60,691 bases of DNA, from positions 1 to 60,691 of IMG/VR virus record IMGVR_UViG_3300009068_000043; one strand, 5' to 3'. The notes below the pieces were generated by a model. The model ran no database searches, was not told the origin of the DNA, and was given only the letters and a program-made list of their open reading frames with translations. Positions 27,379 to 56,221 of this stretch are shown piece after piece. Position numbers and translations under genes: made by a program. How positions within the stretch are numbered: position 1 is the first letter of the stretch; every line of letters begins with the position of its first letter. The DNA is from a virus.

Positions 27379-28278
27379 ATGGCAATCATTACAAGAGCAA
27401 CACCAAAGACTAACTATTTAAATAATCGCGATATTCTCAAGGAAATCCACCTTAGTAAGAAAAATTACTGTGCTTTTAGAGATCCTGTGCTGGATCATCA
27501 ATACGATATCATTCTCCCATCAACAAGCAAAATCAATCAAAAATCCACAGCTGAAGCACGTAGAAATCGAGCAGATCGCATCAAACGTGAAACTGGTGAG
27601 ATCATTGATCCTAAAAAAATCCCCAACACAGACGTGGTCTTTCGCATCATGACCTGGGAACACATACCCATGGCACCAAAAAAGATCACCAAGGCAGCAG
27701 CTAAAAAGCGCAAACTAGAAGAGCTGTTGGAACTGGATGAGCCTGCGGAAGATGATCCGCTAGCAGGATTGATCGACGAACCCATGCTGGATCCCACACA
27801 CATGCGGGTTAATTTTCCTCCATTCTTTCACTATCGTGTGGATGAAAACAAAGAGCCGTATCTAGTGGGCAAGAGTCATTGGCGTGGTGATTTGGAAACT
27901 GGAGAGTTTTCAAAAGATCATGGCGAGATGACTCGAACGCTGGCTCGGATGTTTATGAAACTTTGTGAACGCTATGCCACAAGATCTAACTGGAGAGGAT
28001 ACACCTACAATGAAGAAATGCGCGGACAAGCATTGTTGCAACTCAGCCAAATTGGACTGCAATTTGACGAATCAAAATCGCAGAACCCTTTTGCGTATTA
28101 TACTGCCGCTATCACTAATAGTTTTACTCGCATCCTGAATATTGAAAAAAAGATGCAGAACATCCGCGATGACATCCTGGAGATGAACGGGTTGAATCCT
28201 TCGTGGACTCGACAAAATTCCGGCAAACACAGCATGGAAGCCATGTCCGGTCCGGTTGTGAGCTCGTTTGAAGAGTAG
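27379..28278 (+). CDS. 55: RNA polymerase sigma factor for late transcription, gp55
   Basis: Late sigma factor that directs host RNA polymerase to TATAAATA-type promoters. The C-terminal ~150 residues are diagnostic: MTRTLARMFMKLCERYATRS, NWRGYTYNEEMRGQALLQLS, QIGLQFDESKSQNPFAYYTA and FTRILNIEKKMQNIRDDILE. T4 gp55 has 185 residues; this one has 299, with an N-terminal extension (TNYLNNRDILKEIHLSKKNY, then a basic and an acidic stretch near residues 105-130). The same extension occurs in the cyanophage type of gp55. It is transcribed from the consensus promoter at 27324-27351 and opens the plus-strand block. Its presence fits the TAAATA elements upstream of the structural genes. Confidence 0.93.
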   Translation: MAIITRATPKTNYLNNRDILKEIHLSKKNYCAFRDPVLDHQYDIILPSTSKINQKSTAEARRNRADRIKRETGEIIDPKKIPNTDVVFRIMTWEHIPMAPKKITKAAAKKRKLEELLELDEPAEDDPLAGLIDEPMLDPTHMRVNFPPFFHYRVDENKEPYLVGKSHWRGDLETGEFSKDHGEMTRTLARMFMKLCERYATRSNWRGYTYNEEMRGQALLQLSQIGLQFDESKSQNPFAYYTAAITNSFTRILNIEKKMQNIRDDILEMNGLNPSWTRQNSGKHSMEAMSGPVVSSFEE

Positions 28279-28329
28279 TTTCAAAAAAGCAGCAATCTTC
28301 ATTAACATGCATTTTGGTCTTGACAACAT

Positions 28330-29835
28330 ATGAAAAATATAAGTCCAGGAGAATTAGAATCACACCTCTCTAAGAAATTTAAAGTTCTCAAATTTATAGA
28401 TTTAGCCACAATTGCAGAATCCCCTAGTGAGGCATTTCTGTTGTTTGATCAATTGGCCAAACCTGAATTCAGCCCCGATGAACGTATAGTATTTTATACC
28501 GGCCATGCTGTTGGGCCACGAGCATTGACTTTTCTACAGTATGCTGCTGATGTTTTTGACATCAGTCGATGTTTTGTGTTAGTATGTTGCCCTGTGCCAC
28601 TATCAATTAAAAATCAATACGATATAGAATTTTTTAAGATCTTGGTCGAATCTCATCCATTGGACGATAATCAGGTAATTGATGTCAATACCATGTGTTC
28701 AATGCCATTTTTTAATTTGGAATTTATGAACGACAGCAGTGTCAAACACTGTTGTTTTATACAAGATCAAATTGGATTTGCTGCCGGCTCTGCCGACATG
28801 CACAATCTATTCAATTCAGAAAAATCTACAAAATTAAGAAAACAGTTACTATCAGGCCAACGTCCCGGCGAATGCAATATTTGTTGGAAAAATGAATTTC
28901 AAGGGCTGGGTAGTTTACGACAGTGGCGTAACAAGTTACATAAAAAAGAATTTTTAACCAATTGGATTGATCAGCCCCAGATCAAAAGCATTAGTTTACA
29001 TCCTAGTATCGTGTGTAATTTCAAGTGTAGGATCTGTGGACCATATTCCAGCAGCCTCTGGGTAGACGAAGAATTAAAATATGAAACTGACTTGGCTCGA
29101 CGCGAAAAAATCGTTTACTCTATTGATCAATCCAGGTGGTTTGAGCAAGATTCTCCTGCAGTCACGGGCATTATTGATCTGTGTAGCGAAGTAAAGTATA
29201 TTGATATCTATGGTGGGGAACCACTTCTGCTAAAACAGTTTAGAACCCTATTGCAAAAAAGCATCGAAAGTGGCGCATCTAACACCCAACGATTACATTT
29301 TAATACCAATGTATCTAAGTTTCCGGCCGATCTAATTGAAATGATGCATCATTTTAAAGAGGTGGCTATTTCTTTAAGCATTGACAATATTGGCAAGCAA
29401 TTTGAACTAGAACGGGGCGGAGACTGGAACAATATTGAATATCATGTTGATCAATTTTTGTCCCTGGATCCGGCAATTTTTAAAGTGTCAACTCTAACTA
29501 CTGTGAGCAATCTTAATCTCTTATACCTTGATCAATTAGTTAATTGGGCAGATTCTAAAAATTTAGATCTAACATTTAATATGTTACATTATCCTGAATA
29601 TTTACAATTTGATCGTGTTACCTCACAAATCCGAGACCTAGCGGTTAAACAGTACCAATATCATCCAAACAGTTATCTCAAAAATATTGCACAGAGTTTG
29701 ATAAACAAAGCCCCCGCCGATGTAACCGAATGGGTAGAAAAAATGCAACAGATGGATTATCGTAGAAATCAAAGTATTTTGATAACACATCCAGAACTGG
29801 CCAAGGGCATGGGCTATACAAACAATACCAAATAA
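28330..29835 (+). CDS. Radical SAM protein with an N-terminal SPASM/twitch-like domain
   Basis: Radical SAM enzymes use a [4Fe-4S] cluster and S-adenosylmethionine to start radical chemistry. The cluster motif is CNFKCRIC (C229, C233, C236; CxxxCxxC), followed by a YGGEPLL SAM-contact segment near residue 297. Upstream (about 120-205) lies a permuted twitch-like auxiliary domain: CSMPFFNLEFM, KHCCF, LRKQLLSGQRPGECNICW and GLGSLRQW. This order, auxiliary domain first, is typical of the twitch-type proteins common in aquatic phages. The first ~115 residues are an extra domain without a recognised family. No Shine-Dalgarno is obvious before the ATG and there is a 51-nt gap after gp55. The substrate is unknown. 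Confidence 0.88.
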   Translation: MKNISPGELESHLSKKFKVLKFIDLATIAESPSEAFLLFDQLAKPEFSPDERIVFYTGHAVGPRALTFLQYAADVFDISRCFVLVCCPVPLSIKNQYDIEFFKILVESHPLDDNQVIDVNTMCSMPFFNLEFMNDSSVKHCCFIQDQIGFAAGSADMHNLFNSEKSTKLRKQLLSGQRPGECNICWKNEFQGLGSLRQWRNKLHKKEFLTNWIDQPQIKSISLHPSIVCNFKCRICGPYSSSLWVDEELKYETDLARREKIVYSIDQSRWFEQDSPAVTGIIDLCSEVKYIDIYGGEPLLLKQFRTLLQKSIESGASNTQRLHFNTNVSKFPADLIEMMHHFKEVAISLSIDNIGKQFELERGGDWNNIEYHVDQFLSLDPAIFKVSTLTTVSNLNLLYLDQLVNWADSKNLDLTFNMLHYPEYLQFDRVTSQIRDLAVKQYQYHPNSYLKNIAQSLINKAPADVTEWVEKMQQMDYRRNQSILITHPELAKGMGYTNNTK

Positions 29836-29836
29836 C

Positions 29837-29865
29837 TTGCATTCTGTTATAAAATATAGTATCAT
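29837..29865 (+). promoter_or_regulatory. Sigma70-type promoter placing +1 at the gp47 start codon
   Basis: TTGCAT at 29837-29842, a 17-bp spacer and TATCAT at 29860-29865, then GTACCT and the ATG of gp47. Six nt between the -10 box and the ATG puts the expected transcription start at the A of ATG. No Shine-Dalgarno is present. Confidence 0.65.
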
Positions 29866-29871
29866 GTACCT

Positions 29872-30888
29872 ATGACCAATCTATTCCGCAAAGCAGCTAT
29901 CTTCACAGACATCCATTTTGGCTTAAAAAGCAATAGTGTCACTCACAACGAAGACTGCTTGAACTTTGTAAAGTGGGCTACTACAAAAGCAAAAGAACAA
30001 GGTTGTGAGACCTGTATGTTCCTGGGCGATTGGCATAACAATAGAGCCAGTCTTAACATTGTAACATTAAACTACAGCTTGCGGGCGCTGGAGCATATGA
30101 ATAACAATTTCAGCCAGGTATATTTTATTCCAGGCAATCACGATTTATATTATCGCGACAAACGTGATATCCAAAGTGTTGAATGGGCTAAACATTTACC
30201 CAATGTTGAAATCTGTAATGATTGGGTCACCGTCGGTGATGTTGTGATTGCTCCTTGGCTTGTAGGGGATGACTATAAACGTATACCCAAGCTGAAGGGC
30301 AAATACATGTTTGGGCATTTTGAATTGCCCGGCTATCTCATGAATGCCATGGTTGAAATGCCCGATCACGGTGAAGTACGACGAGAAGACTTCAACAACT
30401 TTGAACATGTATTCACAGGTCACTTTCACAAACGACAAACCAAAAAGAACATCACTTATATTGGCAATTGTTTTCCGCACAATTATGCTGATGCCGGCGA
30501 CGATGACCGTGGGCTTACTATTTTAGAATGGGGTCGGGATCCTGTGTATCATGCCTGGCCCGATCAACCTCGATATCGTGTGCTAGGGCTGGCCAATATC
30601 ATCGACAATGCAGCCGCATTGCTTGCACCTAAAATGCATGTTCGTGTAAACTTAGACATTGAGATTTCATACGAAGAAGCTAACTTTATCAAAGAAACAT
30701 ATATCCGAGATTACAATTTGAGAGAGATGGCATTGATACCCAACAAAAATTCATCAGTGGATACTGATATGGCTCCCGGCGAAGTCAAATTTGAATCAGT
30801 GGATCAGATTGTAACAGATCAAATAACCAATATCGAATCAGAGTTTTACGACAACCGACTGCTGTTGAAAATATATCAAAATCTATGA
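29872..30888 (+). CDS. 47: Recombination endonuclease subunit gp47 (Mre11-like)
   Basis: Nuclease subunit of the gp46/gp47 complex, the phage counterpart of Mre11-Rad50/SbcCD. It processes DNA ends for recombination-dependent replication and host DNA breakdown. Calcineurin-like phosphoesterase motifs are in order: FTDIHFG (D13, H15), FLGDWHNN, PGNHDLYYRD, FGHFE and TGHFHKRQ. Length (338) matches T4 gp47 (339). The C-terminal part contains the region expected to bind gp46. The stop overlaps the gp46 start by 4 nt. Its start codon lies 6 nt after a -10 box, so its own mRNA may be leaderless. Confidence 0.96.
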   Translation: MTNLFRKAAIFTDIHFGLKSNSVTHNEDCLNFVKWATTKAKEQGCETCMFLGDWHNNRASLNIVTLNYSLRALEHMNNNFSQVYFIPGNHDLYYRDKRDIQSVEWAKHLPNVEICNDWVTVGDVVIAPWLVGDDYKRIPKLKGKYMFGHFELPGYLMNAMVEMPDHGEVRREDFNNFEHVFTGHFHKRQTKKNITYIGNCFPHNYADAGDDDRGLTILEWGRDPVYHAWPDQPRYRVLGLANIIDNAAALLAPKMHVRVNLDIEISYEEANFIKETYIRDYNLREMALIPNKNSSVDTDMAPGEVKFESVDQIVTDQITNIESEFYDNRLLLKIYQNL

Positions 30889-32645
30889 TCCATCTACGTG
30901 ATATTACAGTAAAAAACTTTATGAGTGTGGGTAATACCACGCAGGCCATTGACTTTGATCGTAGTGATCTCACACTGGTGCTAGGTGAAAACTTAGACAT
31001 GGGCGGTGATGGCTCTCGCAATGGTACAGGCAAAACCACAATCATCAATGCACTAAGCTATGCATTGTATGGTCAAGCCTTATCAAACATCCGCAAAGAT
31101 AATCTTGTGAACAAGACCAATGCCAAACACATGCTTGTGAGTTTGGACTTTAGTGTCAGCGGGCAGAACTATCGAATTGAACGTGGACGTAAACCCAACA
31201 TTTTAAAATTTTACGTAAATCAAGAAGACAAAAGTTCTGACGATGCTCAAGGCGATTCAAGAGAAACACAAGATGCCATTGAACGTGTGTTGGGAATGAG
31301 TCATGACATGTTTCAACATATCGTTGCACTAAACACATATACTCCGCCGTTCTTGAGTTTGAAGGCCAATGAACAACGCACTATCATCGAACAACTGTTG
31401 GGTATCACACTGTTGAGTGAACGTGCCGATCGTATCAAAGAGCTTAACAAAGCCACCAAAGATTCTATTCAGTCAGAAGAACTACGAATCCGAGCAGTTC
31501 AAGAAGCCAACAAACGAATTGAAGAGCAAATTCAAAGTTTGGAAAAACGTCGCACATTGTGGCTACGTAAACAAACTGAAGATGTGGCTGCATTAACACA
31601 AGGCATCGGTGATCTTGAGCACATTGACATCGAGGCGGAAGTCCAATCACACAGAAATCTTGAGGCATATCATGTGCGTAAGAAAACAGCAGACGATGCA
31701 AATCGGTGGATCAAACAAATCAATGCTGACGACGTAAAATTACAAAAACAATTTGATCAGACCAAGAAAGATCTGAATCAAATTGCCAGTCACAAATGTT
31801 TTGCATGTGGTACAGAGATACACGACAACAGTCTAGATACTGTGAAAGCACAGCGTGAAAAAACTCTGCAAGAATTGGCATTGCAATTGTTGACCAATGA
31901 TACACAACGCATGGAACATCAAGATCGATTATTGAAACTTGATGAGTTAGGCACGGCACCTACAGTTTTTTATGACAACTTAGAACAAGCATTGAATCAC
32001 AAAAATACTGTGAATACCTTACGCAAGGACCTTGCAGCAAGATCATCCGATGCCGATCCGTATGCTGAACAAATTGCAGACATGCAACACCAAGCATTGC
32101 AAGTGGTAAGTTACGATACCCTAAACGAATTTACCAGGGTACAAGAACATCAAGAATTCTTGTTAAAGTTATTGACCAGCAAGGACAGTTTTGTTCGTAA
32201 GAAGATCATTGACCAAAACTTGAGTTATCTCAATGCAAGACTCACATACTATCTTGATCGCATTGGATTACCACATACTGTAAAGTTTCAAAACGATTTA
32301 ACTGTTAGTATTGAAGAGTTGGGGCGTGAATTGGATTTTGATAACTTATCTCGTGGTGAGCGTAATCGACTTATCTTAAGCATGAGCTGGGCATTTAGAG
32401 ATGTGTGGGAAAGTTTATATCGTCCTATCAACATTTTATTTATTGACGAGATGATTGATTCGGGACTTGACACACAAGGTGTAGAGAATGCACTGGCATT
32501 GCTGAAAAAGATGAGTCGAGAACGACAAAAATCAATCTGGTTAGTCAGTCATAGAGATGAATTGACCAGCAGGGTAGAGAATATTCTTAGGGTGGTTAAA
32601 GAGAATGGATTTACCAGTTATAGCACGGACATTGACCTTGCGTGA
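30885..32645 (+). CDS. 46: Recombination endonuclease subunit gp46 (Rad50/SbcC-like ATPase)
   Basis: SMC-like ATPase partner of gp47. Walker A is NGTGKTT (from about residue 46). A coiled-coil arm follows on either side of a zinc hook CFAC (C305, C308). The C-terminal lobe has the ABC signature LSRGERNRL and Walker B INILFIDEMIDSGLD. Length 586 is close to T4 gp46 (560). ATP-driven engagement would gate the gp47 nuclease. The start overlaps gp47 (ATGA). Unusually, the last ~40 nt also encode the start of the following radical SAM gene. Confidence 0.96.
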   Translation: MIHLRDITVKNFMSVGNTTQAIDFDRSDLTLVLGENLDMGGDGSRNGTGKTTIINALSYALYGQALSNIRKDNLVNKTNAKHMLVSLDFSVSGQNYRIERGRKPNILKFYVNQEDKSSDDAQGDSRETQDAIERVLGMSHDMFQHIVALNTYTPPFLSLKANEQRTIIEQLLGITLLSERADRIKELNKATKDSIQSEELRIRAVQEANKRIEEQIQSLEKRRTLWLRKQTEDVAALTQGIGDLEHIDIEAEVQSHRNLEAYHVRKKTADDANRWIKQINADDVKLQKQFDQTKKDLNQIASHKCFACGTEIHDNSLDTVKAQREKTLQELALQLLTNDTQRMEHQDRLLKLDELGTAPTVFYDNLEQALNHKNTVNTLRKDLAARSSDADPYAEQIADMQHQALQVVSYDTLNEFTRVQEHQEFLLKLLTSKDSFVRKKIIDQNLSYLNARLTYYLDRIGLPHTVKFQNDLTVSIEELGRELDFDNLSRGERNRLILSMSWAFRDVWESLYRPINILFIDEMIDSGLDTQGVENALALLKKMSRERQKSIWLVSHRDELTSRVENILRVVKENGFTSYSTDIDLA

Positions 32646-33501
32646 TATAAAAGTCTTACACCTGGAGCCCACAGATGTATGCCAAGCAGCATGCCCTTTG
32701 TGTGCAAGAGAAACTGACAAAAATTTTCGTAAAGATCGTCAGCACCACCTTGACATGTACAAACTAATGCAAGCGTTTGATGCTGATAAAATTGCCAAAT
32801 TAGACAAAATGTTCATGTGCGGCAACTATGGAGATCCTGCTGCTGGCAAGTACACACTGAACATCTATCGTGAATTTAGAAAACTCAACAAAAAAATTGT
32901 GCTAGGCATGAATACCAATGGAGGATTGCAAAATGCTCTATGGTGGAATGAATTAGGACGTATATTTCATCAACCTCAAGACTATGTTGTATTCAGCATA
33001 GATGGGCTTGAAGGCACCAACCATGTTTACAGAAAAAATGTTACCTGGTTGCGAATAATGCAAAACGCACAGTCTTTTATACAAGCAGGAGGATCTGCAC
33101 ACTGGGACATGTTGGTGTACCGGCATAATCAACATCAAGTTGATGAGTGTAAGCAACTTGCTCAATCTATGGGATTTAAATGGTTTCGTGCTAAAGTTAG
33201 TAAACGTGGATTTACAAACAAATTAGAACAACCAATTGGATGGGGTATTCCGTCTATGGTATCCACCACAATTGATTGTCATGCTATTAAAGAGCAAAGC
33301 ACTTATATAGATGCACAAGGAAATATAAGTCCATGCTGCTGGCTTGGTGCAAGACAACAAGATTTTGTTAGAGATTTTACTCAAATACAAAACTCTTGGA
33401 CTAGTTTGCAACCTAATATTGTATGTGTGGATACCTGCGGATCCAAAGATGGCGGATCCAATTTTAGCAATCAATGGCAAAGAGAGGTTGAACTTGTTTG
33501 A
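32605..33501 (+). CDS. Radical SAM/SPASM-like protein, 298 aa (paralogue 1)
   Basis: Radical SAM core with CQAACPLC (C26, C30, C33; CxxxCxxC) very near the N-terminus and an MCGNYGDP segment where other members have a GG-E-P-like motif. The C-terminal region carries auxiliary-cluster cysteines typical of a short SPASM/twitch domain: IDCHAIK, DAQGNISPCCW and CVDTCGSKDGG. It is clearly paralogous to the next gene (shared TNGG, SIDGLE/GIDGLE, HxxYRKNV, AGG.A.W and HNQHQV). The chosen ATG overlaps gp46 by 41 nt. No strong Shine-Dalgarno is present, so coupling to gp46 translation is likely. Substrate unknown; SPASM-type enzymes often modify peptides or proteins. Confidence 0.88.
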   Translation: MDLPVIARTLTLRDIKVLHLEPTDVCQAACPLCARETDKNFRKDRQHHLDMYKLMQAFDADKIAKLDKMFMCGNYGDPAAGKYTLNIYREFRKLNKKIVLGMNTNGGLQNALWWNELGRIFHQPQDYVVFSIDGLEGTNHVYRKNVTWLRIMQNAQSFIQAGGSAHWDMLVYRHNQHQVDECKQLAQSMGFKWFRAKVSKRGFTNKLEQPIGWGIPSMVSTTIDCHAIKEQSTYIDAQGNISPCCWLGARQQDFVRDFTQIQNSWTSLQPNIVCVDTCGSKDGGSNFSNQWQREVELV

Positions 33502-34597
33502 TTTTTCTGTGATTGATGAGTATCAAATTGAAATAACCACATACTGTAATGCGGCCTGTCCACAGTGCCCGAGAAATGATCTTGGTCACGGTATCAATCC
33601 TTACATGCCATTGACCCATCTTGATCGTGTGGTAATTGATCGTGCATTTGATACAGAACTTTGCACACGGTTACGACAAATATTCTTCTGCGGCAGTTAT
33701 GGCGATCCTATCATGCATCCTGATTTTCTGGGCATCTTGCGAGATTTTCGCAGCAAGAATCCCTCACTATGGTTGTATATGCATACCAATGGGGGTGTGC
33801 ATGACCCAGAGTATTGGACAGAGATAGCCCGGATCATGAATGGATATGGACAAATAGATTTTGGAATAGACGGCCTTGAAGATACCTTACATCTATATCG
33901 TAAAAATGTAAAATACAATCAAGTCATAGCCAATGCACAAGCATTCATCAATGCCGGTGGTCGTGCGCAGTGGAACTACATAGTGTTCCAACATAACCAA
34001 CATCAAGTTGAGCAAGCTAAAGAACTAGCAGCTAGCATGAAGTTCCACAACATTCTGATACGTAAGACTGGTAGATTTCTCAATCATGCCTTGATGGAAG
34101 AGATGCAAACATGGCCTATTAAAAACAGTGATCGTGTGTTAGCACCGTCCGACCATCCAGAATATCGCAATGCAAGCATGATGTTTCTGCCCAACTTAAA
34201 AAAACAATATGCATCAGTTAAGGATTATTTTGATACCACCCCAATACGGTGTGATGCTATGATGGGACGCAAAGTAGCTATTAATGCTGAGGGTGTGGTA
34301 TTGCCTTGCAATTTTTTCAATCACAACCTGTATGATGCTAGATTCAGAGACGGCAGTTTGCCTGGTGCCAATCCATTAAGCCAACACAATGGACGCAATC
34401 AGATCACAGACTTTTTGTCAAGATATGGCTTAGATAATCTCAATCTACACAATAACTCATTAGAGGGTGTGTTTGAGAATCCCATGTGGTCGGATCTAGT
34501 AGAGAGCTGGAACAATGAACATAGATTGTTTGAATGTGCAATGACCTGTGGTAGTAAATTTACAAAAGTATGGGATCAAGGAGGATCCAAAATATGA
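33449..34597 (+). CDS. Radical SAM/SPASM-like protein, 382 aa (paralogue 2)
   Basis: CNAACPQC (C33, C37, C40) gives the cluster motif, followed by FCGSYGDPIMHPDFLGILRD, MHTNGGVHDPEYW and DFGIDGLEDTLHLYRKNV. C-terminal auxiliary cysteines lie in IRCDAMMGRKVAINAEGVV, LPCNFF and CAMTCGSK. The reading frame could begin at 33344, but that would add ~35 hydrophobic residues overlapping the upstream gene. The ATG at 33449 places the first cluster cysteine at a family-like distance and is preferred. It is longer than its paralogue by an insertion before the auxiliary cysteines. It overlaps the upstream gene by 53 nt and the downstream dehydrogenase by 4 nt, so this is a tightly coupled set. Confidence 0.86.
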   Translation: MADPILAINGKERLNLFDFSVIDEYQIEITTYCNAACPQCPRNDLGHGINPYMPLTHLDRVVIDRAFDTELCTRLRQIFFCGSYGDPIMHPDFLGILRDFRSKNPSLWLYMHTNGGVHDPEYWTEIARIMNGYGQIDFGIDGLEDTLHLYRKNVKYNQVIANAQAFINAGGRAQWNYIVFQHNQHQVEQAKELAASMKFHNILIRKTGRFLNHALMEEMQTWPIKNSDRVLAPSDHPEYRNASMMFLPNLKKQYASVKDYFDTTPIRCDAMMGRKVAINAEGVVLPCNFFNHNLYDARFRDGSLPGANPLSQHNGRNQITDFLSRYGLDNLNLHNNSLEGVFENPMWSDLVESWNNEHRLFECAMTCGSKFTKVWDQGGSKI

Positions 34598-35178
34598 AAA
34601 TGTTAGTAACCGGCGGTAATAGAGGATTAGGACAGCATCTTGTGGAACAATTTGGTGCAACAAGCATGAGCCGTGCTACAGGAATTGATATTACAAAAGA
34701 TCATCAAAACATTGCTCTAATGAGTTTAGAGTATGATGTGTTTGTGAACAATGCATTTGATGGGCCTCCACAAGAGCCGTGGGCAAATTTTGGACAGACC
34801 CAGGTGTACATGGCAGTATACGATGCATGGCAAGCAGACGGAAAATCTGGATGGATTTTTAACATCGGATCTGTGGGGGAGCAAAGCATAGTGGCACCTG
34901 AACCCAGATGGGAAACATATAGAATTAGCAAGGCAGCATTAAGTCACGCCAGCAGGCAAGGCACTCAGGCATTTAAACAAGATCAAGTGAAATTTCGAAC
35001 AACTTTACTCACATTAGATAGACTAGATACGGAACTTAGCCGTAGTAGACCCACATGGACTGGTAACGGGCAGGCTTTGCATGACATCAGTGACTTTATC
35101 AAGTATACTGTAAATGTCAATGCAAATACCGTGATAGAACAGGCAACTTTTTACATCAACTTTGACTTTAAGGCATAA
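34594..35178 (+). CDS. Short-chain dehydrogenase/reductase-like protein, 194 aa
   Basis: Rossmann-fold oxidoreductase. The N-terminus MKMLVTGGNRGLGQHL holds the SDR nucleotide motif TGxxxGxG. VNNAF corresponds to the NNAG structural motif, IFNIGSVG contains the catalytic Ser, and YRISKAAL provides the YxxxK catalytic pair. So all main SDR residues are present although the protein is shorter than the usual ~250. The start at 34594 follows AAGGAGG (34578-34584), the strongest ribosome binding site of this operon, and overlaps the preceding stop as ATGA. Linked to two radical SAM genes, it may act on the same unknown substrate or precursor. Confidence 0.87.
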   Translation: MKMLVTGGNRGLGQHLVEQFGATSMSRATGIDITKDHQNIALMSLEYDVFVNNAFDGPPQEPWANFGQTQVYMAVYDAWQADGKSGWIFNIGSVGEQSIVAPEPRWETYRISKAALSHASRQGTQAFKQDQVKFRTTLLTLDRLDTELSRSRPTWTGNGQALHDISDFIKYTVNVNANTVIEQATFYINFDFKA

Positions 35179-35204: not shown

Positions 35205-35633
35205 ATGACATGGCTATATCAAAACACCCCAGTGGAGACATTGCCCGAAACATGTGTGGGATTTGTTTACTTGATCACAAATAATCTATCTGGACGCAAA
35301 TACATAGGCAAAAAACTAGCCAAGTTCTCAAAAACAACTTACCGAACAGTCAAACAAAAAAACGGCATCAAAAAGCGGAAAAAGATACACAGCAAAATCG
35401 ATAGCGATTGGCAAGAGTATTATGGGTCAAGCTCAGAATTATCCGCAGACATCCAAAAACTAGGCACCGACAATTTTACCAGAGAAATACTTTACTACTG
35501 TAACAGTAAAAGTGAATGTTCATACGTTGAAGCACGGGAACAGTTCAGTAGACAAGTATTAGAGTCACAAGATTATTACAACGGCCAGATATCTGTAAGG
35601 GTACATGGTCGGCAAATTCTAAACAAAATTTAA
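35205..35633 (+). CDS. GIY-YIG family nuclease, 142 aa
   Basis: A compact GIY-YIG-type domain: GFVYLITNNLSGRKYIGKKL has the two tyrosine motifs in variant form (VYL at 21-23, YIG at 33-35). A basic loop (KQKNGIKKRKKIHSK) follows, then WQEYYGSSSELSADIQKLG, the FTREILYYC strand and a Glu-containing helix (YVEAREQFSRQ). Similar stand-alone proteins in T4-like phages are annotated as endonucleases, possibly homing enzymes. No DNA-binding extension is seen. A TAATAC box lies 6 nt before the ATG without a good -35. It is directly followed by the 437-nt gap with many hairpins, which may be functionally linked. Confidence 0.85.
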   Translation: MTWLYQNTPVETLPETCVGFVYLITNNLSGRKYIGKKLAKFSKTTYRTVKQKNGIKKRKKIHSKIDSDWQEYYGSSSELSADIQKLGTDNFTREILYYCNSKSECSYVEAREQFSRQVLESQDYYNGQISVRVHGRQILNKI

Positions 35634-50136: not shown

Positions 50137-51066
50137 ATGTCCTTGTATGCCGTCACCACCTATTTCAATTCAGCCAAGTATCAAACCAAATTAAACAATT
50201 ATCGATTGTTTCGTAAACATCTGACTGTGCCACTGATCACTGTGGAACTCAGCTTTGATGGTGAGTTTGAACTTGTGCCCACAGATGCTGATGTCATGGT
50301 ACAACTTCATGGTGGCGCTGTGCTGTGGCAAAAAGAACGGCTGCTGAACGTTGCACTACAACACTTGCCCGAAGACTGTGATACTGTGGCCTGGATTGAT
50401 AATGACGTGCTGTTTGACAGCGATTCATGGGTGACACAAGCGCAACAACAACTCAAAAAATACCAAATGGTGCAGTTGTTTTCTCGCAGTGTGGATCTCA
50501 AGCCTGGTGAAACAGACATCTCAGCTGAACCCGAATACTATGCACAAGGACTCATAGCTCGTATTGAATCCAATGGTATGAGTGCGTTGGAAAGACAAAG
50601 CAAATACAGTTGGGGGCATCCACGACGTGAAGTCATGCCTGGCTTGGCCTGGTGCATACGCAGAGATACTATAGATCAACATGGATTTTATGATGCCATG
50701 ATCATGGGTGCTGCTGATCGCATGTTCTTGCATGCTGCATATGGCAAAATTTCTCAGGTGCCCACCACAGTTCCTATGACCCAGTCACACTTTGCACACT
50801 ACCTGAAGTGGGCTAGCCCATTCTACACCACAGTGCAAGGCAGCGTAGGTTACATTGATCATACCGCATATCATCTCTGGCACGGTGACATACCTAATCG
50901 ACGCTATTGGGATCGTCATGATGCTGTGGTCAAACTGGGATTTGACCCTGTGACAGACATCAAACACGGTGATAACGGTGCCTGGCAGTGGGCCAGCCGT
51001 CGACCTGAATTAGAACATTACTGCATTGACTACTTCCAACAACGCCTGGAGGATGGCCATGCTTGA
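50137..51066 (+). CDS. Glycosyltransferase-like protein, GT-A type, 309 aa
   Basis: The N-terminus MSLYAVTTYFNSAKYQTKLN has the opening strand and substrate loop of family-2-like glycosyltransferases. The acidic metal/nucleotide-sugar motif is in CDTVAWIDNDVLFDSDSW (D-x-D within DND, about residue 87). GHPRREVMPGLAWCIRRDTI and DAMIMGAADRMFLHAAYG resemble the acceptor-side region. The C-terminus (AYHLWHGDIPNRRYWDRHD) is aromatic and His-rich. It is the first gene of a three-gene operon behind a perfect promoter and overlaps the ATP-grasp gene by 8 nt. The substrate is unknown; candidates are a virion protein, the host envelope or DNA. Confidence 0.83.
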   Translation: MSLYAVTTYFNSAKYQTKLNNYRLFRKHLTVPLITVELSFDGEFELVPTDADVMVQLHGGAVLWQKERLLNVALQHLPEDCDTVAWIDNDVLFDSDSWVTQAQQQLKKYQMVQLFSRSVDLKPGETDISAEPEYYAQGLIARIESNGMSALERQSKYSWGHPRREVMPGLAWCIRRDTIDQHGFYDAMIMGAADRMFLHAAYGKISQVPTTVPMTQSHFAHYLKWASPFYTTVQGSVGYIDHTAYHLWHGDIPNRRYWDRHDAVVKLGFDPVTDIKHGDNGAWQWASRRPELEHYCIDYFQQRLEDGHA

Positions 51067-52825
51067 ACTTGGAACGGTTTATTCGGCCTGCGAAGGCAGT
51101 GCTTTGGGGGTACTGGGGCCCATGGCTGTGATGGACATTATTGCTCATGTGCCTGATCAATTTGATCAGGGTATGATGGATGCGGACCTAGATCGTGTGT
51201 TGGGATTTGTGAGTCAGATTCACACCAACGATGTTGAATTACAACTGCTGCATCGCGGCATTGGATTGGCTTGTTTTGTACAAGGCATGAATCGTGTGGT
51301 GGTATCCAATCAATATCAAGTGATCGCAGCTAAAAAGTTAGAATCGGGTGCGGTGTGTTTTCGTGTGGCAGTGAGTGTGACCAATCCCGACGCCACAGCC
51401 ACAGCATTTAAATTTGCCAATGACATCATTGACTTGTATTCACAACCAGCACCGCATGACATAGAGCCTTTGGTAGCCTGGGCAGCAGACCAACTTGATC
51501 GTTATGGGCTGCCGGGGCAAAACCAAGGATTCTTGTTGACCTTGTGTATGAAACGTGCTATGCCCGTGAATCAAATATGGCCGGGCACACACATGGTGGG
51601 CACTGGCAAGTATTCACAGCGAATCAGTAGCACAATGACTCAACGCACATCAGCACAGGCTGTGCTGTATGCCAAAAACAAAATTGCCACAGCTGAACTG
51701 CTGAACTTGGCAGGATTACCGGGCAGTGAACACAAAAGAGTTGCCACCTGGGAACAAACTGTCAAGGCTGCTGAAGAATATGGTTATCCTGTGGTGATCA
51801 AACCTTATGACCGTGACAATGGTCAGGGTGTGTATGCTGGTATCACCACAGTGACAGACTTGCAATATGCCTACACAGAAGTCACAAAGATTGTGCCACA
51901 ATTCCTAGTAGAACGACACTTTGAAGGGGTGGGCCACAGAATTACCATTGTGGATCAAAACATAATCACCGTGACCAAAAAACTGCCAGCTACCCTAACT
52001 GGAGATGGGGTCAGTACCGTGCAACAATTGATCGACGCACAGCAAGGGCCCTCACGATACATCAAACGTCCTGAAGGTGGGGAACCATTTATCTTGATAG
52101 GATCCGCTGTGCCAGCCATGACAGTGGATGACGAAGTGCTGGGCATGCTTACACAACAGTCGCACACACTACACACTGTGCCTGCCGGAGACGAAAAATT
52201 ACTACTACGACGACGAAACAATGCCAGTGCAGGTGGTGTCACTCGTGCCATTGACAAAACCACTGTGCATCCGGACAATCAAGAACTGTGTTTGCGTGCT
52301 GCACGTATCATGGACTTGGACATTGCTGGCATTGATTTGTTGATTCCGGACATCACACAAAGTTGGTTAGAAACTGGCGCATTAATTTGCGAAGTAAATG
52401 CTGTGCCACAGGTGGGATACAATCATGGTATCACACAAATAGTAGATCACATTTTTCAAACTGGTGTGCGTGTGCCTGTACATATGGTCATAGTTGAATC
52501 TTGGAATCGAAGTGATTTACATCTTGCACACGAATTGGCTGCGATCACCAGCAGCAATGCATTCAGTACCAGCACGGGTATCTGGATCAATCACAAGTGC
52601 ATGAGCAGACCTTTTGATAATGGCTTTGCCGCAGCTAGGGCAGTGATATTTGACCAACAAGTTGAATCTGCGGTGTGCATAATGACCAAAACCGAAGTTG
52701 CGGAACTGGGATTGCCGTTGGATCAGTTTGATCAAATCCTGATAGAAAACCCCGATGATGTTGTGAACTGGGTCTCTCCGCACAGCAAGAATATCAAACC
52801 TTTGAAAGTGAATAGAAATGAATAA
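51059..52825 (+). CDS. Cyanophycin-synthetase-like ATP-grasp ligase with truncated Mur-ligase domain, 588 aa
   Basis: Start: of two close ATGs, 51059 is correctly spaced (6 nt) from GGAGG. The N-terminal ~200 residues resemble the CphA N-domain, ending with GTGKYSQRISSTMTQRTSAQ. The ATP-grasp domain (about 205-455) has YPVVIKPYDRDNGQGVYAG (K248, G255-G257), FLVERHFEGVGHRITIVDQ, KKLPATLTGDG, LRRRNNASAGG (from R384), LDIAGIDLL and CEVNAVP (E445, N447). In CphA a Mur-ligase domain follows and adds Arg to poly-Asp; here only ~120 residues remain, and its P-loop (GTNGKT) is replaced by ESWNRSD (480-486). So only the ATP-grasp centre should be active, forming amide bonds from carboxylates. The substrate is unknown. 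It is coupled to neighbours by 8-nt overlaps on both sides. Confidence 0.88.
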   Translation: MLELGTVYSACEGSALGVLGPMAVMDIIAHVPDQFDQGMMDADLDRVLGFVSQIHTNDVELQLLHRGIGLACFVQGMNRVVVSNQYQVIAAKKLESGAVCFRVAVSVTNPDATATAFKFANDIIDLYSQPAPHDIEPLVAWAADQLDRYGLPGQNQGFLLTLCMKRAMPVNQIWPGTHMVGTGKYSQRISSTMTQRTSAQAVLYAKNKIATAELLNLAGLPGSEHKRVATWEQTVKAAEEYGYPVVIKPYDRDNGQGVYAGITTVTDLQYAYTEVTKIVPQFLVERHFEGVGHRITIVDQNIITVTKKLPATLTGDGVSTVQQLIDAQQGPSRYIKRPEGGEPFILIGSAVPAMTVDDEVLGMLTQQSHTLHTVPAGDEKLLLRRRNNASAGGVTRAIDKTTVHPDNQELCLRAARIMDLDIAGIDLLIPDITQSWLETGALICEVNAVPQVGYNHGITQIVDHIFQTGVRVPVHMVIVESWNRSDLHLAHELAAITSSNAFSTSTGIWINHKCMSRPFDNGFAAARAVIFDQQVESAVCIMTKTEVAELGLPLDQFDQILIENPDDVVNWVSPHSKNIKPLKVNRNE

Positions 52826-53465
52826 TATTTGGCTAGAACAAATTGTAGCAAATCCTGAACTCATGAGCATGGGACATGGTCAACAAGCCAAGGACAAAAA
52901 CCTAGGCATGGGCTGGATGTATTATGCTCTGGCACGTATGTATCGCCCTGCCACAGTGATGTGTATTGGATCCTGGCGTGGGTTTGTGCCTATGATGTTT
53001 GCTCGTGGTATACAGGACAATGCACAAGCTGGTACAGTACACTTTGTTGATCCTGGCATGGTAGACGATCATTGGCAATCACCCGAGAGTGTGAGTGAAT
53101 GGTTTGATCACTACGATGTCAACAATATCACACACCACAAGAAAACCACACAAGAGTTTGTGGAGACCAATGTATATCGCAATTTACAAAACATCGACAT
53201 CTTGTTTGTAGATGGGTATCATTCAGCTGAACAAGCACAGTATGACCATGAAGCTTTTGTTAGCAAACTCAGTACCAACAGCATTGTGTTATTTCATGAC
53301 AGTATGAGTAGAAATGCTTCTAAAATTTATGGTGCAGATCGTGTGTACAATTATTCAGTATGCGATTATATTGATCAGTTACGTAGCCGCCCCAACATGC
53401 AAATCATGGACTTTCCGTTTGAAAACGGTGTTACATTAGTTCGCCATCAAATTCCTGGTGTTTAG
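52818..53465 (+). CDS. SAM-dependent methyltransferase-like protein, 215 aa
   Basis: Class I methyltransferase fold of the Methyltransf_24-like kind: VMCIGSWRGFVPMMFARGI in the SAM-binding motif I position, GTVHFVDPGM as the acidic strand 2, IDILFVDGYHSAEQAQYDHE as motif IV, and SIVLFHDS as strand 5. The His-Asp residues in HxxEQ..YD and FHDS are typical of this family. Enzymes of the type often act on sugars, acyl chains or small carriers. It is the third gene of the glycosyltransferase/ATP-grasp operon (ATG inside the previous stop). Its own stop overlaps by two bases the stop of the convergent glycosyltransferase gene, leaving no space for a terminator. Confidence 0.82.
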   Translation: MNNIWLEQIVANPELMSMGHGQQAKDKNLGMGWMYYALARMYRPATVMCIGSWRGFVPMMFARGIQDNAQAGTVHFVDPGMVDDHWQSPESVSEWFDHYDVNNITHHKKTTQEFVETNVYRNLQNIDILFVDGYHSAEQAQYDHEAFVSKLSTNSIVLFHDSMSRNASKIYGADRVYNYSVCDYIDQLRSRPNMQIMDFPFENGVTLVRHQIPGV

Positions 53466-54613
53466 ATCTTAAAAAAGCCCAGGAATTTGTGCATACGGTT
53501 GATCACTGAGTCCCAGTCGCCCATTTTGGGTTGCCGATACAGTCTGGCACTGGGATACCAAGGTGAATCTTCACGCTGTAGTAACCAGCGCCAACAATTG
53601 CCATAAGCATTGAGTGGAATCCAAACAGGACGACCCATGGCTCCAGCCAAGTGTGCATTGGCAGTATCTACTGATATCACAAGATCCAAGTGATGCATGA
53701 GTCCTGCGGTGTCACTAAAATCTTTAATTGTTCCTGGATAACACTCACCACCAGCGGCCGTGATAGCAGCAGATTCTTCTTCAGACGAATCCACAGTTAG
53801 ATTGATCCATTGATGTTCAGGATTGCGACGTATAAGATCAGTTATTTTTTCTATAGGTATGGCTTTGTGATTGTGTATCCAAGAATCTTCACGGCCTCTC
53901 CAGCAAACACCAATCCTCATGCGTTTCTTAACACCTAATCTACTGGTCCATTCTTTCACTTTTTCAGGAGTGGCTGCAATATATTGCAATTGATGTGTGA
54001 TTGTTTCTAATCGCAGCCCAATCACTCGAGGGATACTCATCATAGAAATCCAATAGTCGTATTCACCAAGATCTTCCCCAGGTGCATAGACACCGATGAT
54101 GTGTCCAGCAGGGGATGGAAACAGTGTTTTAACACCGGGACTCAATATCAATTTTATCTTTGCACCAGCTGATAACAGATTGGCAGAAAATCTCAAGAAC
54201 TGAATTTGATCCCCTAATCCTTGTTCCCCTACCAGTAATATAGTTTTGTCTTTGAGATCTTGCCCAGTCCATTCAGGTTTTGGTAATTTTGGTTTGACAC
54301 CAGCCATGTGCTCGTAACGCCAGCGAGCTTCGTAATACTGCCATCCTTTTTCGTAATCACCGGTGATCAAGTATGCCACAGCTAAATTAAACTCGGTTGT
54401 AACGTTTGACGGATCAATATCGTGTGCAGCGTGTAGGAAAGGAATGGCACGGTCCGGGTAACCCATCTCTCTCAACACATTGCCATAGTTGTTAAATGCA
54501 GCACAATTATTGAAGTCTTGTCCAAACATCTCGGCATAGCATTTTAATGCCAGTTCAGGTTGGTGATTTGCGCGATGTTGATTGCCTTGTTCTAGTAGTT
54601 GGTCGATGTTCAT
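53462..54613 (-). CDS. TPR-containing glycosyltransferase, GT9/GT41-like, 383 aa
   Basis: The N-terminal ~105 residues contain two to three tetratricopeptide repeats (LALKCYAEMFGQDFNNCAAF, NNYGNVLREMGYPDRAIPFL, NLAVAYLITGDYEKGWQYYE). The remainder is a GT-B glycosyltransferase domain: TILLVGEQGLGDQIQFLRF near residue 124, RIGVCWRGRE, then VISVDTANAHLAGAMGRPVW and CWRWLLQREDSPWYPSARLY. This architecture is frequent in bacterial and phage protein glycosyltransferases. The frame is open to 54664, but the ATG at 54613 (MNIDQLLEQGNQHRANHQ) follows a TAAATA box by 5 nt and is chosen. It is the only minus-strand gene in this part. Confidence 0.87.
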   Translation of the reverse strand: MNIDQLLEQGNQHRANHQPELALKCYAEMFGQDFNNCAAFNNYGNVLREMGYPDRAIPFLHAAHDIDPSNVTTEFNLAVAYLITGDYEKGWQYYEARWRYEHMAGVKPKLPKPEWTGQDLKDKTILLVGEQGLGDQIQFLRFSANLLSAGAKIKLILSPGVKTLFPSPAGHIIGVYAPGEDLGEYDYWISMMSIPRVIGLRLETITHQLQYIAATPEKVKEWTSRLGVKKRMRIGVCWRGREDSWIHNHKAIPIEKITDLIRRNPEHQWINLTVDSSEEESAAITAAGGECYPGTIKDFSDTAGLMHHLDLVISVDTANAHLAGAMGRPVWIPLNAYGNCWRWLLQREDSPWYPSARLYRQPKMGDWDSVINRMHKFLGFFKI

Positions 54614-54618
54614 ACGGA

Positions 54619-54624
54619 TATTTA
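54619..54624 (-). promoter_or_regulatory. Late-promoter-like TAAATA, 5 nt before the TPR glycosyltransferase
   Basis: Minus-strand ATTAAATATCCGTATG. It has the same spacing as the gp25 element and decides the choice of start codon. Confidence 0.5.
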
Positions 54625-54663
54625 ATAGTACCTGGCATGCCATCAAAAATAAGTGATTGTCCA

Positions 54664-54757
54664 TAAATAAGTGCTGTACGCAATACTGCGTCTTATGCGG
54701 TTACCCTGCCGCGTAGCGACTAGAACTCGCATCGGACTTCTTTAAGGAGAAAAAATC
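54664..54757 (+). promoter_or_regulatory. Late element and folded leader of the 54758 virion gene
   Basis: TAAATA at 54664-54669, then a leader of ~85 nt with hairpins ACGCA/TGCGT (54678-54691) and GCGG/CCGC (54697-54712), and AAGGAG shortly before the ATG. The long, structured leader contrasts with the leaderless genes nearby. Confidence 0.5.
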
Positions 54758-55585
54758 ATGGGTCGTCCATTAAAAATACAAAAATACAGTTTAAATACTG
54801 GCATCAATAGCCCTGGCGATGATGTACCAGTGGATCTTGCCTATCCACCATTCAGCGCACTTGATGTGCCTGTTTACAATGCACCTGTACAGACATTGAA
54901 TGCAGCGCAGTTCTTGGGTGTGGTCGGTGGATCACCAACTACCAGCCAACCTAGTGCCACATACCCCGAAGTAGCAGCACTGGTAAACATTCTATTAGCA
55001 GATGGTACTACTACTGAGGCTATTGCTAATCAATACACCGGTCGTATCATACGCCAAAAAGGTAGCCACAAATATCTAGTTGCATACACATATGCAACTA
55101 CCGCTGATACAGGTTTCATTGTTGGTCAAGCATATCAGATTGCTGTTCTTGGAACAACCAACTGGCAATCAGTGGGCACCGGCACAGGCACAGTGGCACC
55201 TGGTGATATTTTCACTGCCACAGCATCCGATGGTGGTGGCAACGGAACTGCATACCCAGTTGGCGTGTGCGTGTTGACCAATGATACCACACCAGGTGCG
55301 GGTCTCATGGCAATTGGTTACGAATCTGGTGACAGTGCAGCAGCCACAGCCAGTAACCTTAAAAACAAGTGGGTGCGCGACTGGACTGGAACTACTGGAG
55401 ACTATAGCGATGCCAACCTTGGCGAAGTTACTTACACCAGCGAATTTTACTATGTTGCCAACTTCTTCACAGACGAAGGTGGAGTTGCTCAGTCTGGATT
55501 GGATGTGGCTACTGCTACAGAATCAGTTGCTGCGGCACCAGATGGCTATGTGCCACTGGCAGTTATCAACAACGTTACTTCTTAA
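54758..55585 (+). CDS. Virion structural protein with an inserted beta domain, 275 aa
   Basis: The opening MGRPLKIQKYSL and the segment YTGRIIRQKGSHKYLVA are shared with structural proteins of T4-like aquatic phages. The C-terminal part (VRDWTGTTGDY, EVTYTSEFYYVANFFTDEGG) continues the same fold. Between residues ~119 and 168 a separate module (FIVGQAYQIAVLGTTNW...GDIFTATA) interrupts it; this small domain occurs in many unrelated phage virion proteins. AAGGAG lies 8 nt before the ATG, and a strong terminator follows. Such an isolated transcription unit with strong signals suggests an abundant virion component, but its location in the particle is unknown. Confidence 0.83.
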   Translation: MGRPLKIQKYSLNTGINSPGDDVPVDLAYPPFSALDVPVYNAPVQTLNAAQFLGVVGGSPTTSQPSATYPEVAALVNILLADGTTTEAIANQYTGRIIRQKGSHKYLVAYTYATTADTGFIVGQAYQIAVLGTTNWQSVGTGTGTVAPGDIFTATASDGGGNGTAYPVGVCVLTNDTTPGAGLMAIGYESGDSAAATASNLKNKWVRDWTGTTGDYSDANLGEVTYTSEFYYVANFFTDEGGVAQSGLDVATATESVAAAPDGYVPLAVINNVTS

Positions 55586-55601
55586 TATTTAGGAACTCAC
55601 A

Positions 55602-55633
55602 ATCCTCTCAGCTACATACTGGGAGGATTTTTT
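55602..55633 (+). terminator. Terminator hairpin that also contains the next gene's Shine-Dalgarno
   Basis: ATCCTCTCAG (55602-55611) pairs with CTGGGAGGAT (one T-G pair), followed by TTTTTT. The 3' arm includes GGGAGG, 8 nt before the ATG at 55634, so read-through transcripts carry a sequestered ribosome binding site. Confidence 0.85.
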
Positions 55634-56221
55634 ATGACCATAGCATTTGTATTGGGAAATGGGCAAAGTCGAATTGCCATTGATTTACAAAAATGTAAAT
55701 TGTTAGGTGCAATCTACGGCTGTAATGGACTATACAGAGACTTTGAACCCGACTGTCTTGTGGCTACAGATCGCCCTATCTCAGAAGCTATTCAGCGTTC
55801 AGGGTACGCAAAGAATCACAGATTTTACACAAGAAAACCATTGCTGGACTTGGGTGCACAGATGGTTCCTAAAAAATATCACGGCAATAGTTCAGGACCT
55901 ATTGCATGTGCCATTGCTGCATTGGATGGGCATGATCGTATCTATCTATTGGGGTATGATATGGGTCCAAGTCAGTCAATGAGATTTAATAATGTCTACG
56001 CTGGTACTGAGTTTTACAAAAGTGCAGATGCCGCACCCACATACACTGGAAATTGGATACGACAAGTAGCAGGGATAGCTGTAGATTTTCCAAAAACTAA
56101 ATTTATCCGTGTGTGCGGCCCTACCACAGCCGAAATAAAAGAACTCAAAAACATTGAAAATTTTCAACACATAGATATAAAAACATTCTTATATCGAACT
56201 GATACCAACAGTGACCTGTAA
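55634..56221 (+). CDS. Rossmann-like phage protein of the DUF115/GNG-S type, 195 aa
   Basis: The N-terminus FVLGNGQSRIAIDLQKCKLL forms a GNGxSR nucleotide-type loop, followed by GAIYGCNGLYRDFEPDCLVA, TDRPISEAI, HGNSSGPIACAIAALDGHDR and IYLLGYDMGPS. This resembles DUF115/MAF-type proteins, some of which act in sugar modification, and similar unannotated proteins in aquatic phages. The active site is not known. The start lies directly behind the terminator U-tract and uses GGGAGG from the terminator stem. The gene is followed by a hairpin and the collagen-like fibre gene. A role in modifying the neighbouring fibres is possible but unproven. Confidence 0.72.
   Translation: MTIAFVLGNGQSRIAIDLQKCKLLGAIYGCNGLYRDFEPDCLVATDRPISEAIQRSGYAKNHRFYTRKPLLDLGAQMVPKKYHGNSSGPIACAIAALDGHDRIYLLGYDMGPSQSMRFNNVYAGTEFYKSADAAPTYTGNWIRQVAGIAVDFPKTKFIRVCGPTTAEIKELKNIENFQHIDIKTFLYRTDTNSDL

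Follow-up and report, generated by a model that had tools for sequence, protein, structure and literature searches.

Phages rich in radical S-adenosylmethionine (rSAM) genes, with a dozen or more each, have been a curiosity since 2010 and have no assigned reaction. The Campylobacter phages CP220 and CPt10 encode 11 and 12 rSAM proteins, respectively, and carry an interchangeable five-gene rSAM module (PMC2853527). The T4-like TARA_ERS488813_N000010 contains 12 rSAM genes and was discussed for its Fe-S assembly genes (PMC5332604). A precedent for an rSAM enzyme that works with an NADPH reductase partner is AprD4 with AprD3 (PMC5461906). Here we describe two rSAM genes (rSAM2 and rSAM3) and a gene for a short-chain dehydrogenase/reductase (SDR) that lie in tandem between gp46 and a segE-like gene of IMG/VR virus record IMGVR_UViG_3300009068_000043; this whole 60,691-base stretch is referred to as the window. 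It comes from a large freshwater T4-like phage whose gp46 shares 49.6% identity with the gp46 of PA5oct-type jumbo phages. Modules rich in rSAM genes were already known in T4-like phages; what sets this one apart is the pairing of a predicted Twitch rSAM enzyme with a short SDR, the two being fused in some relatives.

Relatives in IMG/VR number about 184 for rSAM3, about 199 for rSAM2, and about 131 for the SDR, all from metagenomic records that may be fragments and in which reading frames were called mechanically. In a tree anchored on the rSAMs, the proteins fall into three families with 97 to 100% support: family A, to which rSAM2 belongs, family B, to which rSAM3 belongs, and family C, whose members are about 340 amino acids long and usually lack an SDR. 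Every family B member of this tree has an SDR as the next gene or fused in frame, and in ten loci the two make up one in-frame protein of 564 to 595 amino acids, with L191 (8861-10579) as an example of a natural fusion. Because the first 148 distinct loci had been recovered with rSAM or SDR queries, the region was sampled again with gp46 and segE, and not an rSAM, as baits, which gave 107 distinct gp46 alleles. Family B occurs with the SDR in 19 of these, alone in 1, the SDR alone in 2, and neither in 85 (Fisher p 8e-18; the alleles are related, so the p-values in this sample overstate independence and are indicative only). All three exceptions involve partial or weak matches, with scores of 30 to 36 bits. 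The SDR itself has the classical features TGxxxGxG, NNA, and a conserved Ser-Tyr-Lys, and this triad is invariant in 20 of 20 phage copies paired with family B and retained in the cellular B-paired copies discussed below. Coupling between family B and the SDR can be taken as shown, with high confidence. Where dN/dS (the ratio of nonsynonymous to synonymous substitution) could be computed, it ranged from 0.05 to 0.14 in rSAM3 and the SDR, with values up to 0.2 in rSAM2; these values and the 180 to 200 or so relatives of each rSAM show that rSAM2 and rSAM3 are not chance reading frames.

The interval between gp46 and segE is a cargo slot that is filled with interchangeable rSAM tailoring genes in large freshwater T4-like phages. 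The order gp55-gp47-gp46-cargo-segE is kept among the 148 loci and the cargo varies. When an interval of less than 120 nucleotides is counted as empty, the slot is empty in 27 of the 107 alleles; of the 80 filled slots, at least 67 contain a recognized rSAM gene. Families B and C are mutually exclusive, with no joint occurrence (0/52, p 0.0007), and a B12-type rSAM accompanies a 171-residue protein (both in 16 alleles, the first alone in 1, the second alone in 7, neither in 83; p 9e-13). An rSAM protein of about 500 residues is encoded between gp46 and family B in L024, L189, L050, and other loci, nearly always with a Pfam-less protein of about 171 residues, and one copy has a weak B12-binding match. 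At the level of whole genomes, of 14 contigs from relatives that exceed 120 kb, 12 contain 11 to 19 PF04055 genes and the other two 8 and 7, compared with 1 in T4, none in PA5oct, and 4 in each of Phosso and Atu_ph07, the contigs having been reached via the cassette or segE rather than by random draw. INPHARED contains no close relative of the cassette.

The earlier note on this DNA described rSAM2 and rSAM3 as SPASM-like, an assignment that does not hold. A SPASM domain is defined by the seven-cysteine pattern CX9-15GX4C-gap-CX2CX5CX3C-gap-C, while a Twitch domain has CX9-15GX4C plus a terminal cysteine pair, for one auxiliary cluster (PMC6231123). The CX2CX5CX3C block is absent from all 74 aligned members of families A, B, and C. 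The CX9-15GX4C motif is present in 25/25 members of B, 29/30 of A, and 17/19 of C, and all have CX3C near the C terminus. The C-terminal auxiliary cysteines that the note did recognize number four in each protein (CX13GX4C plus CX3C), and rSAM2 and rSAM3 are therefore, by their motifs, C-terminal Twitch enzymes with a predicted single auxiliary cluster. Against a PF04055 cut-off of 29.5 bits, rSAM3 scores above it and rSAM2 is borderline, at 28.1 or 29.7. Both have CGxxGDP where many rSAM proteins, rSAM1 included, have GGEP, the motif that binds S-adenosylmethionine. The cysteine of this CGxxG[DE]P is invariant in families A, B, and C, and an active-site role for it is possible.

The pairing is also found in cells. 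An exact-word genome scan with family B found no relative. A profile search with the SDR led to a metagenome-assembled genome of Bacteriovoracales (phylum Bdellovibrionota) with a full family B homologue (E 5.5e-135) and an SDR two genes away (L382/L410), and to a Litoricola genome in which an SDR-rSAM pair lies close to NeuB (L384); a Lysobacteraceae bin (L383) was dropped because its weak SDR match has no rSAM next to it. An order-wide SDR search around Litoricola came back empty at a threshold that the seed genome itself did not reach. A phylum-wide profile search placed family B-like genes in 29 of 369 Bdellovibrionota genomes. Further cellular B-SDR pairs are present in L407, L414, L422, and L426, and C-SDR pairs in L419, L433, L441, L442, L447, and L448. 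Of 75 A/B/C-like genes from this phylum, 40 have an N_Twi rSAM within three genes, 25 a MoaA-like rSAM, 19 an SDR, and 8 a B12-type rSAM. A quick tree of phage and cellular genes places phage family B as the sister clade of the Bacteriovoracales B-SDR gene (support 100) and joins phage family C to cellular C genes, all with a nearby SDR (support 100), which puts SDR pairing on both the phage and the cell side in two rSAM lineages. The B-like gene of L405 adjoins a UDP-glucose/GDP-mannose dehydrogenase and a family 2 glycosyltransferase (GT2) and lies upstream of ribosomal-protein genes (identified by reading), so it is chromosomal; a GT2 is also found near the C-SDR pair of L419.

We tentatively propose, with the case for and against close to balanced, that these genes form a modular tailoring cassette in which rSAM3 would oxidize or dehydrate a sugar-like alcohol by radical chemistry and the SDR would reduce the ketone; its reaction, substrate, and use are what we infer. 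A radical reaction ending in a carbonyl is consistent with an obligate reductase partner, as in AprD4/AprD3, and this is the basis for the proposed order of events. The 5'-deoxyadenosyl radical of rSAM3 would abstract a hydrogen from a hydroxyl-bearing carbon of the substrate, the Twitch [4Fe-4S] cluster would accept the electron to yield a ketone, formed directly or by way of dehydration, and the SDR with NAD(P)H would reduce it, for a net epimerization or deoxygenation like that of AprD4/AprD3. In this scheme rSAM2 would make a further or alternative change, and the product would most likely decorate a glycan or nucleotide-diphosphate sugar used by the phage or the host.

The fold does not identify the substrate. 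The nearest structural neighbors of the family B model (predicted local distance difference test score, pLDDT, 87.7) are SuiB (Z 19.1), BlsE (Z 18.6; 3.8 Å, 267 residues aligned), and SkfB (Z 18.4), followed by MoaA, anSME (about 17.6), DesII (Z 17.4; 3.9 Å, 283 residues), and BtrN (Z 15.9; 3.3 Å, 224 residues). For family A, BlsE is nominally first (Z 15.8; 3.7 Å, 240 residues), tied with SkfB, SuiB, and MoaA. BlsE, DesII, and BtrN are sugar or cyclitol enzymes, and the modeled fold alone cannot choose between a peptide and a sugar. Most characterized SPASM/Twitch enzymes act on peptides. The leading alternative, which we consider unlikely, is that a peptide or protein is the target, be it a ribosomally synthesized and post-translationally modified peptide (RiPP), a virion protein, or a host protein, on which rSAM2 and rSAM3 would introduce radical-derived changes and the SDR would reduce a side-chain carbonyl. 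SuiB and SkfB rank high among the structural matches, and in Bdellovibrionota clusters rSAMs from several families are direct neighbors, as in some RiPP loci. However, rSAM2 and rSAM3 begin almost at the rSAM fold and leave the N-terminal RiPP recognition element (RRE) region of SuiB unmatched, with alignment starting at SuiB residue 98. PqqD was not found in ten relatives, and within the cassette the genes overlap or abut, with only 26 nucleotides between the SDR and segE, so that there is no room there for a precursor gene, though one may lie elsewhere. The peptide modification that the earlier note listed among its possibilities is thus made less likely. These same absences, along with the sugar-gene neighbors in some cellular clusters, are why a small polyol or sugar is favored, and a sugar-like substrate is plausible at slightly less than even confidence.

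Apart from the relatedness of the gp46 alleles, several points weigh against a sugar-tailoring cassette. The family B fold is matched equally well by the peptide maturases SuiB, SkfB, and anSME and by the sugar enzymes. A glycan context is seen around only some of the cellular clusters. The catalytic Tyr of the SDR is lost, with Trp or Met in its place, in several cellular C-SDR pairs (L433, L442, L447, and L448), where the SDR may have a different role, and phage family C mostly lacks an SDR although its cellular relatives have one. A family-model search matched neither rSAM2 nor rSAM3 to a characterized family above cut-off, and a sequence search of the PDB with profiles of families A and B gave no match at E 0.01. 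Scores for the tungsten-cofactor rSAM maturase TIGR04317 were 56.5 and 59.6 bits, against a curated cut-off of 380, and the PDB matches at E 10, rejected as unrelated, were only proteasome and DEAD-ringer chains. A broader reading, that a two-enzyme Twitch rSAM-SDR unit common to mega-phages and predatory Bdellovibrionota epimerizes or deoxygenates a surface-glycan sugar and lets phages remodel their own or host glycans, is speculative and less likely than not.

Alternatively, the cassette may be opportunistic cargo at a site flanked by a homing endonuclease, with effects on host metabolism as auxiliary metabolic genes and no common substrate. A GIY-YIG gene does border the slot, its contents are mosaic, and divergent alleles are swapped (rSAM2 and rSAM3 are 63% and 86% identical, respectively, in nucleotides to those of L005); the authors of the CP220 study likewise proposed interchangeable, non-essential modules (PMC2853527). 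Strict B-SDR pairing, the exclusion of B by C, and strong purifying selection point instead to a defined function, and we regard this explanation as improbable. Least probable of all is a role in making or modifying nucleotides or DNA bases, as a hypermodification against restriction. In its favor are the location among replication and recombination genes, the FolE-, QueD-, and YhhQ-like genes of relative G001 (by reading), and weak QueC-like matches in three of ten relatives. Against it, a thymidylate-synthase homologue (PF00303), the kind of hydroxymethylase that hmdUMP-based thymidine hypermodification calls for, is absent from ten relatives with controls positive (these records may be incomplete, and the window itself is a fragment). 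A quarter of otherwise similar phages have an empty slot, which is unexpected for a genome-wide modification, and the same gene pairs sit in bacterial chromosomes.

A third rSAM gene, rSAM1, lies before gp47 and is separate from the rSAM2/rSAM3 system. It falls below the PF04055 cut-off (22.2 bits) and well within NF033640 (N_Twi_rSAM), from which it differs by an extra N-terminal stretch of about 119 residues; the earlier note's reading of it as a permuted twitch protein is thereby borne out. Where the window has 1.6 kb, a phage whose flanking sequence is about 94% identical (L084/L004/L165) has 11 nucleotides; rSAM1 has therefore been inserted or deleted precisely between the stop of gp55 and the start of gp47. 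In PA5oct, gp55, gp47, and gp46 are contiguous, and rSAM1 has only one close relative in IMG/VR. The three rSAMs that the note groups together are thus not one system, rSAM1 being a polymorphic insertion and the gp46-segE slot an independent cargo site. That the genes are wrapped around gp46/gp47 is right as to position, but this reflects insertion slots in a conserved gp55-gp47-gp46 order, and a link to recombination is not demonstrated. In relative G001, positions 318496-327069 (L219/L220) hold another array, of about five N_Twi rSAM genes in tandem, with matching arrays in other large relatives; its neighbors, by reading, are AMP-ligase-like, NodU-like carbamoyltransferase, SGNH, and amidinotransferase-like genes.

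The remaining claims of the note fared better. The reading frames, including the two paralogous rSAMs and then the SDR after gp46, lie as described and run in one direction, from gp55 to segE, and CxxxCxxC is present in all three rSAMs (starting at residues 229, 26, and 33). Co-occurrence is seen across the IMG/VR relatives, and we agree that sequence alone leaves the function undecided. The overlaps of 41, 53, and 4 nucleotides hold with ATG starts, but TTG starts that match the beginnings of homologues shrink the first two to about 8; these two depend on start choice, and an argument for translational coupling from them was set aside for that reason. The SDR start has a strong AGGAGG upstream. 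For segE, the PHROG label 'NAD synthetase' was dropped in favor of GIY-YIG.

Table 1. Features of the gp55-segE region, in window coordinates
Feature	Position	Strand	Evidence and details
gp55, late sigma factor, upstream landmark	27379..28278	+	phrog_12791, E 1.5e-77
Inserted segment bearing rSAM1	28280..29871	+	11 nucleotides in its place in ~94%-identical L084/L004/L165
rSAM1, N-terminal-twitch rSAM protein, 501 residues	28330-29835	+	NF033640 252.7 bits (cut-off 170)
gp47 (SbcD-like), landmark	29872..30888	+	phrog_100, E 5.4e-60
gp46 (SbcC-like), left edge of slot	30885..32645	+	phrog_77, E 3.4e-97
rSAM2, family A, predicted C-terminal Twitch; alternative TTG start 32638	32605..33501	+	PF04055 28.1 bits; Cys 26/30/33, 72, 225/244/274/278
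rSAM3, family B, predicted C-terminal Twitch; alternative TTG start 33494	33449..34597	+	PF04055 39.4 bits; Cys 33/37/40, 81, 268/287/363/367; model pLDDT 87.7
Short SDR, 194 residues, family B partner	34594..35178	+	PF00106 27.0 bits vs 26.6 (202-residue form); TGGNRGLG, S93, Y109, K113
segE-like GIY-YIG gene, right edge of slot	35205..35633	+	PF19835 115.4 bits

Elsewhere in the window, positions 50137-56221 hold a RimK-like ATP-grasp gene (51026-52825), a methyltransferase (52818-53465), a tetratricopeptide repeat/glycosyltransferase-9 protein (53462-54664, minus strand), and uncharacterized genes, possibly a further tailoring region. Periplasmic TctC-type receptor genes, identified by reading in G001 (314810-315730) and L203 (3876-4808), may point to a Burkholderiales-like host. 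Tandem rSAM arrays are seen in two isolates, Pelagibacter phage Mosig (MT647606.1, 60990-71305), with nitroreductases, an ArnB-like aminotransferase, and a carbamoyltransferase, and Vibrio phage K566 (OZ196521.1, 161548-165950).

The strict rSAM-SDR pairing, its fusions, and its chromosomal counterparts provide a small two-protein system that could reveal what rSAM-rich phages make, and Fe-S radical chemistry joined to a dehydrogenase in a single polypeptide would be useful enzymology. Compared with this locus, CP220 and CPt10 are also T4-like, with tandem rSAMs swapped as a block, a genome-wide rSAM excess, and an amidinotransferase near the module, amidinotransferase-like genes being found in the present loci as well. 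Their module, however, occupies another genomic place, no SDR pairing or fusion was described for it, and rSAM3 is 24% identical over 48% of its length. TARA_ERS488813_N000010 is likewise T4-like and rich in rSAM genes, although neither a cassette structure nor an SDR was described. The Bdellovibrionota clusters bring together families A, B, and C, N_Twi and B12-type rSAMs, and a short SDR, but unlike the phage cassette they are chromosomal and larger, with glycosyltransferases and membrane proteins. BtrN, a Twitch rSAM dehydrogenase, differs in having 13% identity, no sequence-level match, and no fused SDR, yet it has a single Twitch cluster, as predicted here, with a comparable cysteine layout and a similar fold. 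Although the AprD4 model NF033070 is not among the rSAM2/rSAM3 matches at E 0.1 or better, AprD4/AprD3, which carries out the C3' deoxygenation of apramycin, likewise joins an rSAM enzyme to an obligate NAD(P)H reductase partner, and by this analogy it is possible that rSAM3 and the SDR work in the same way.

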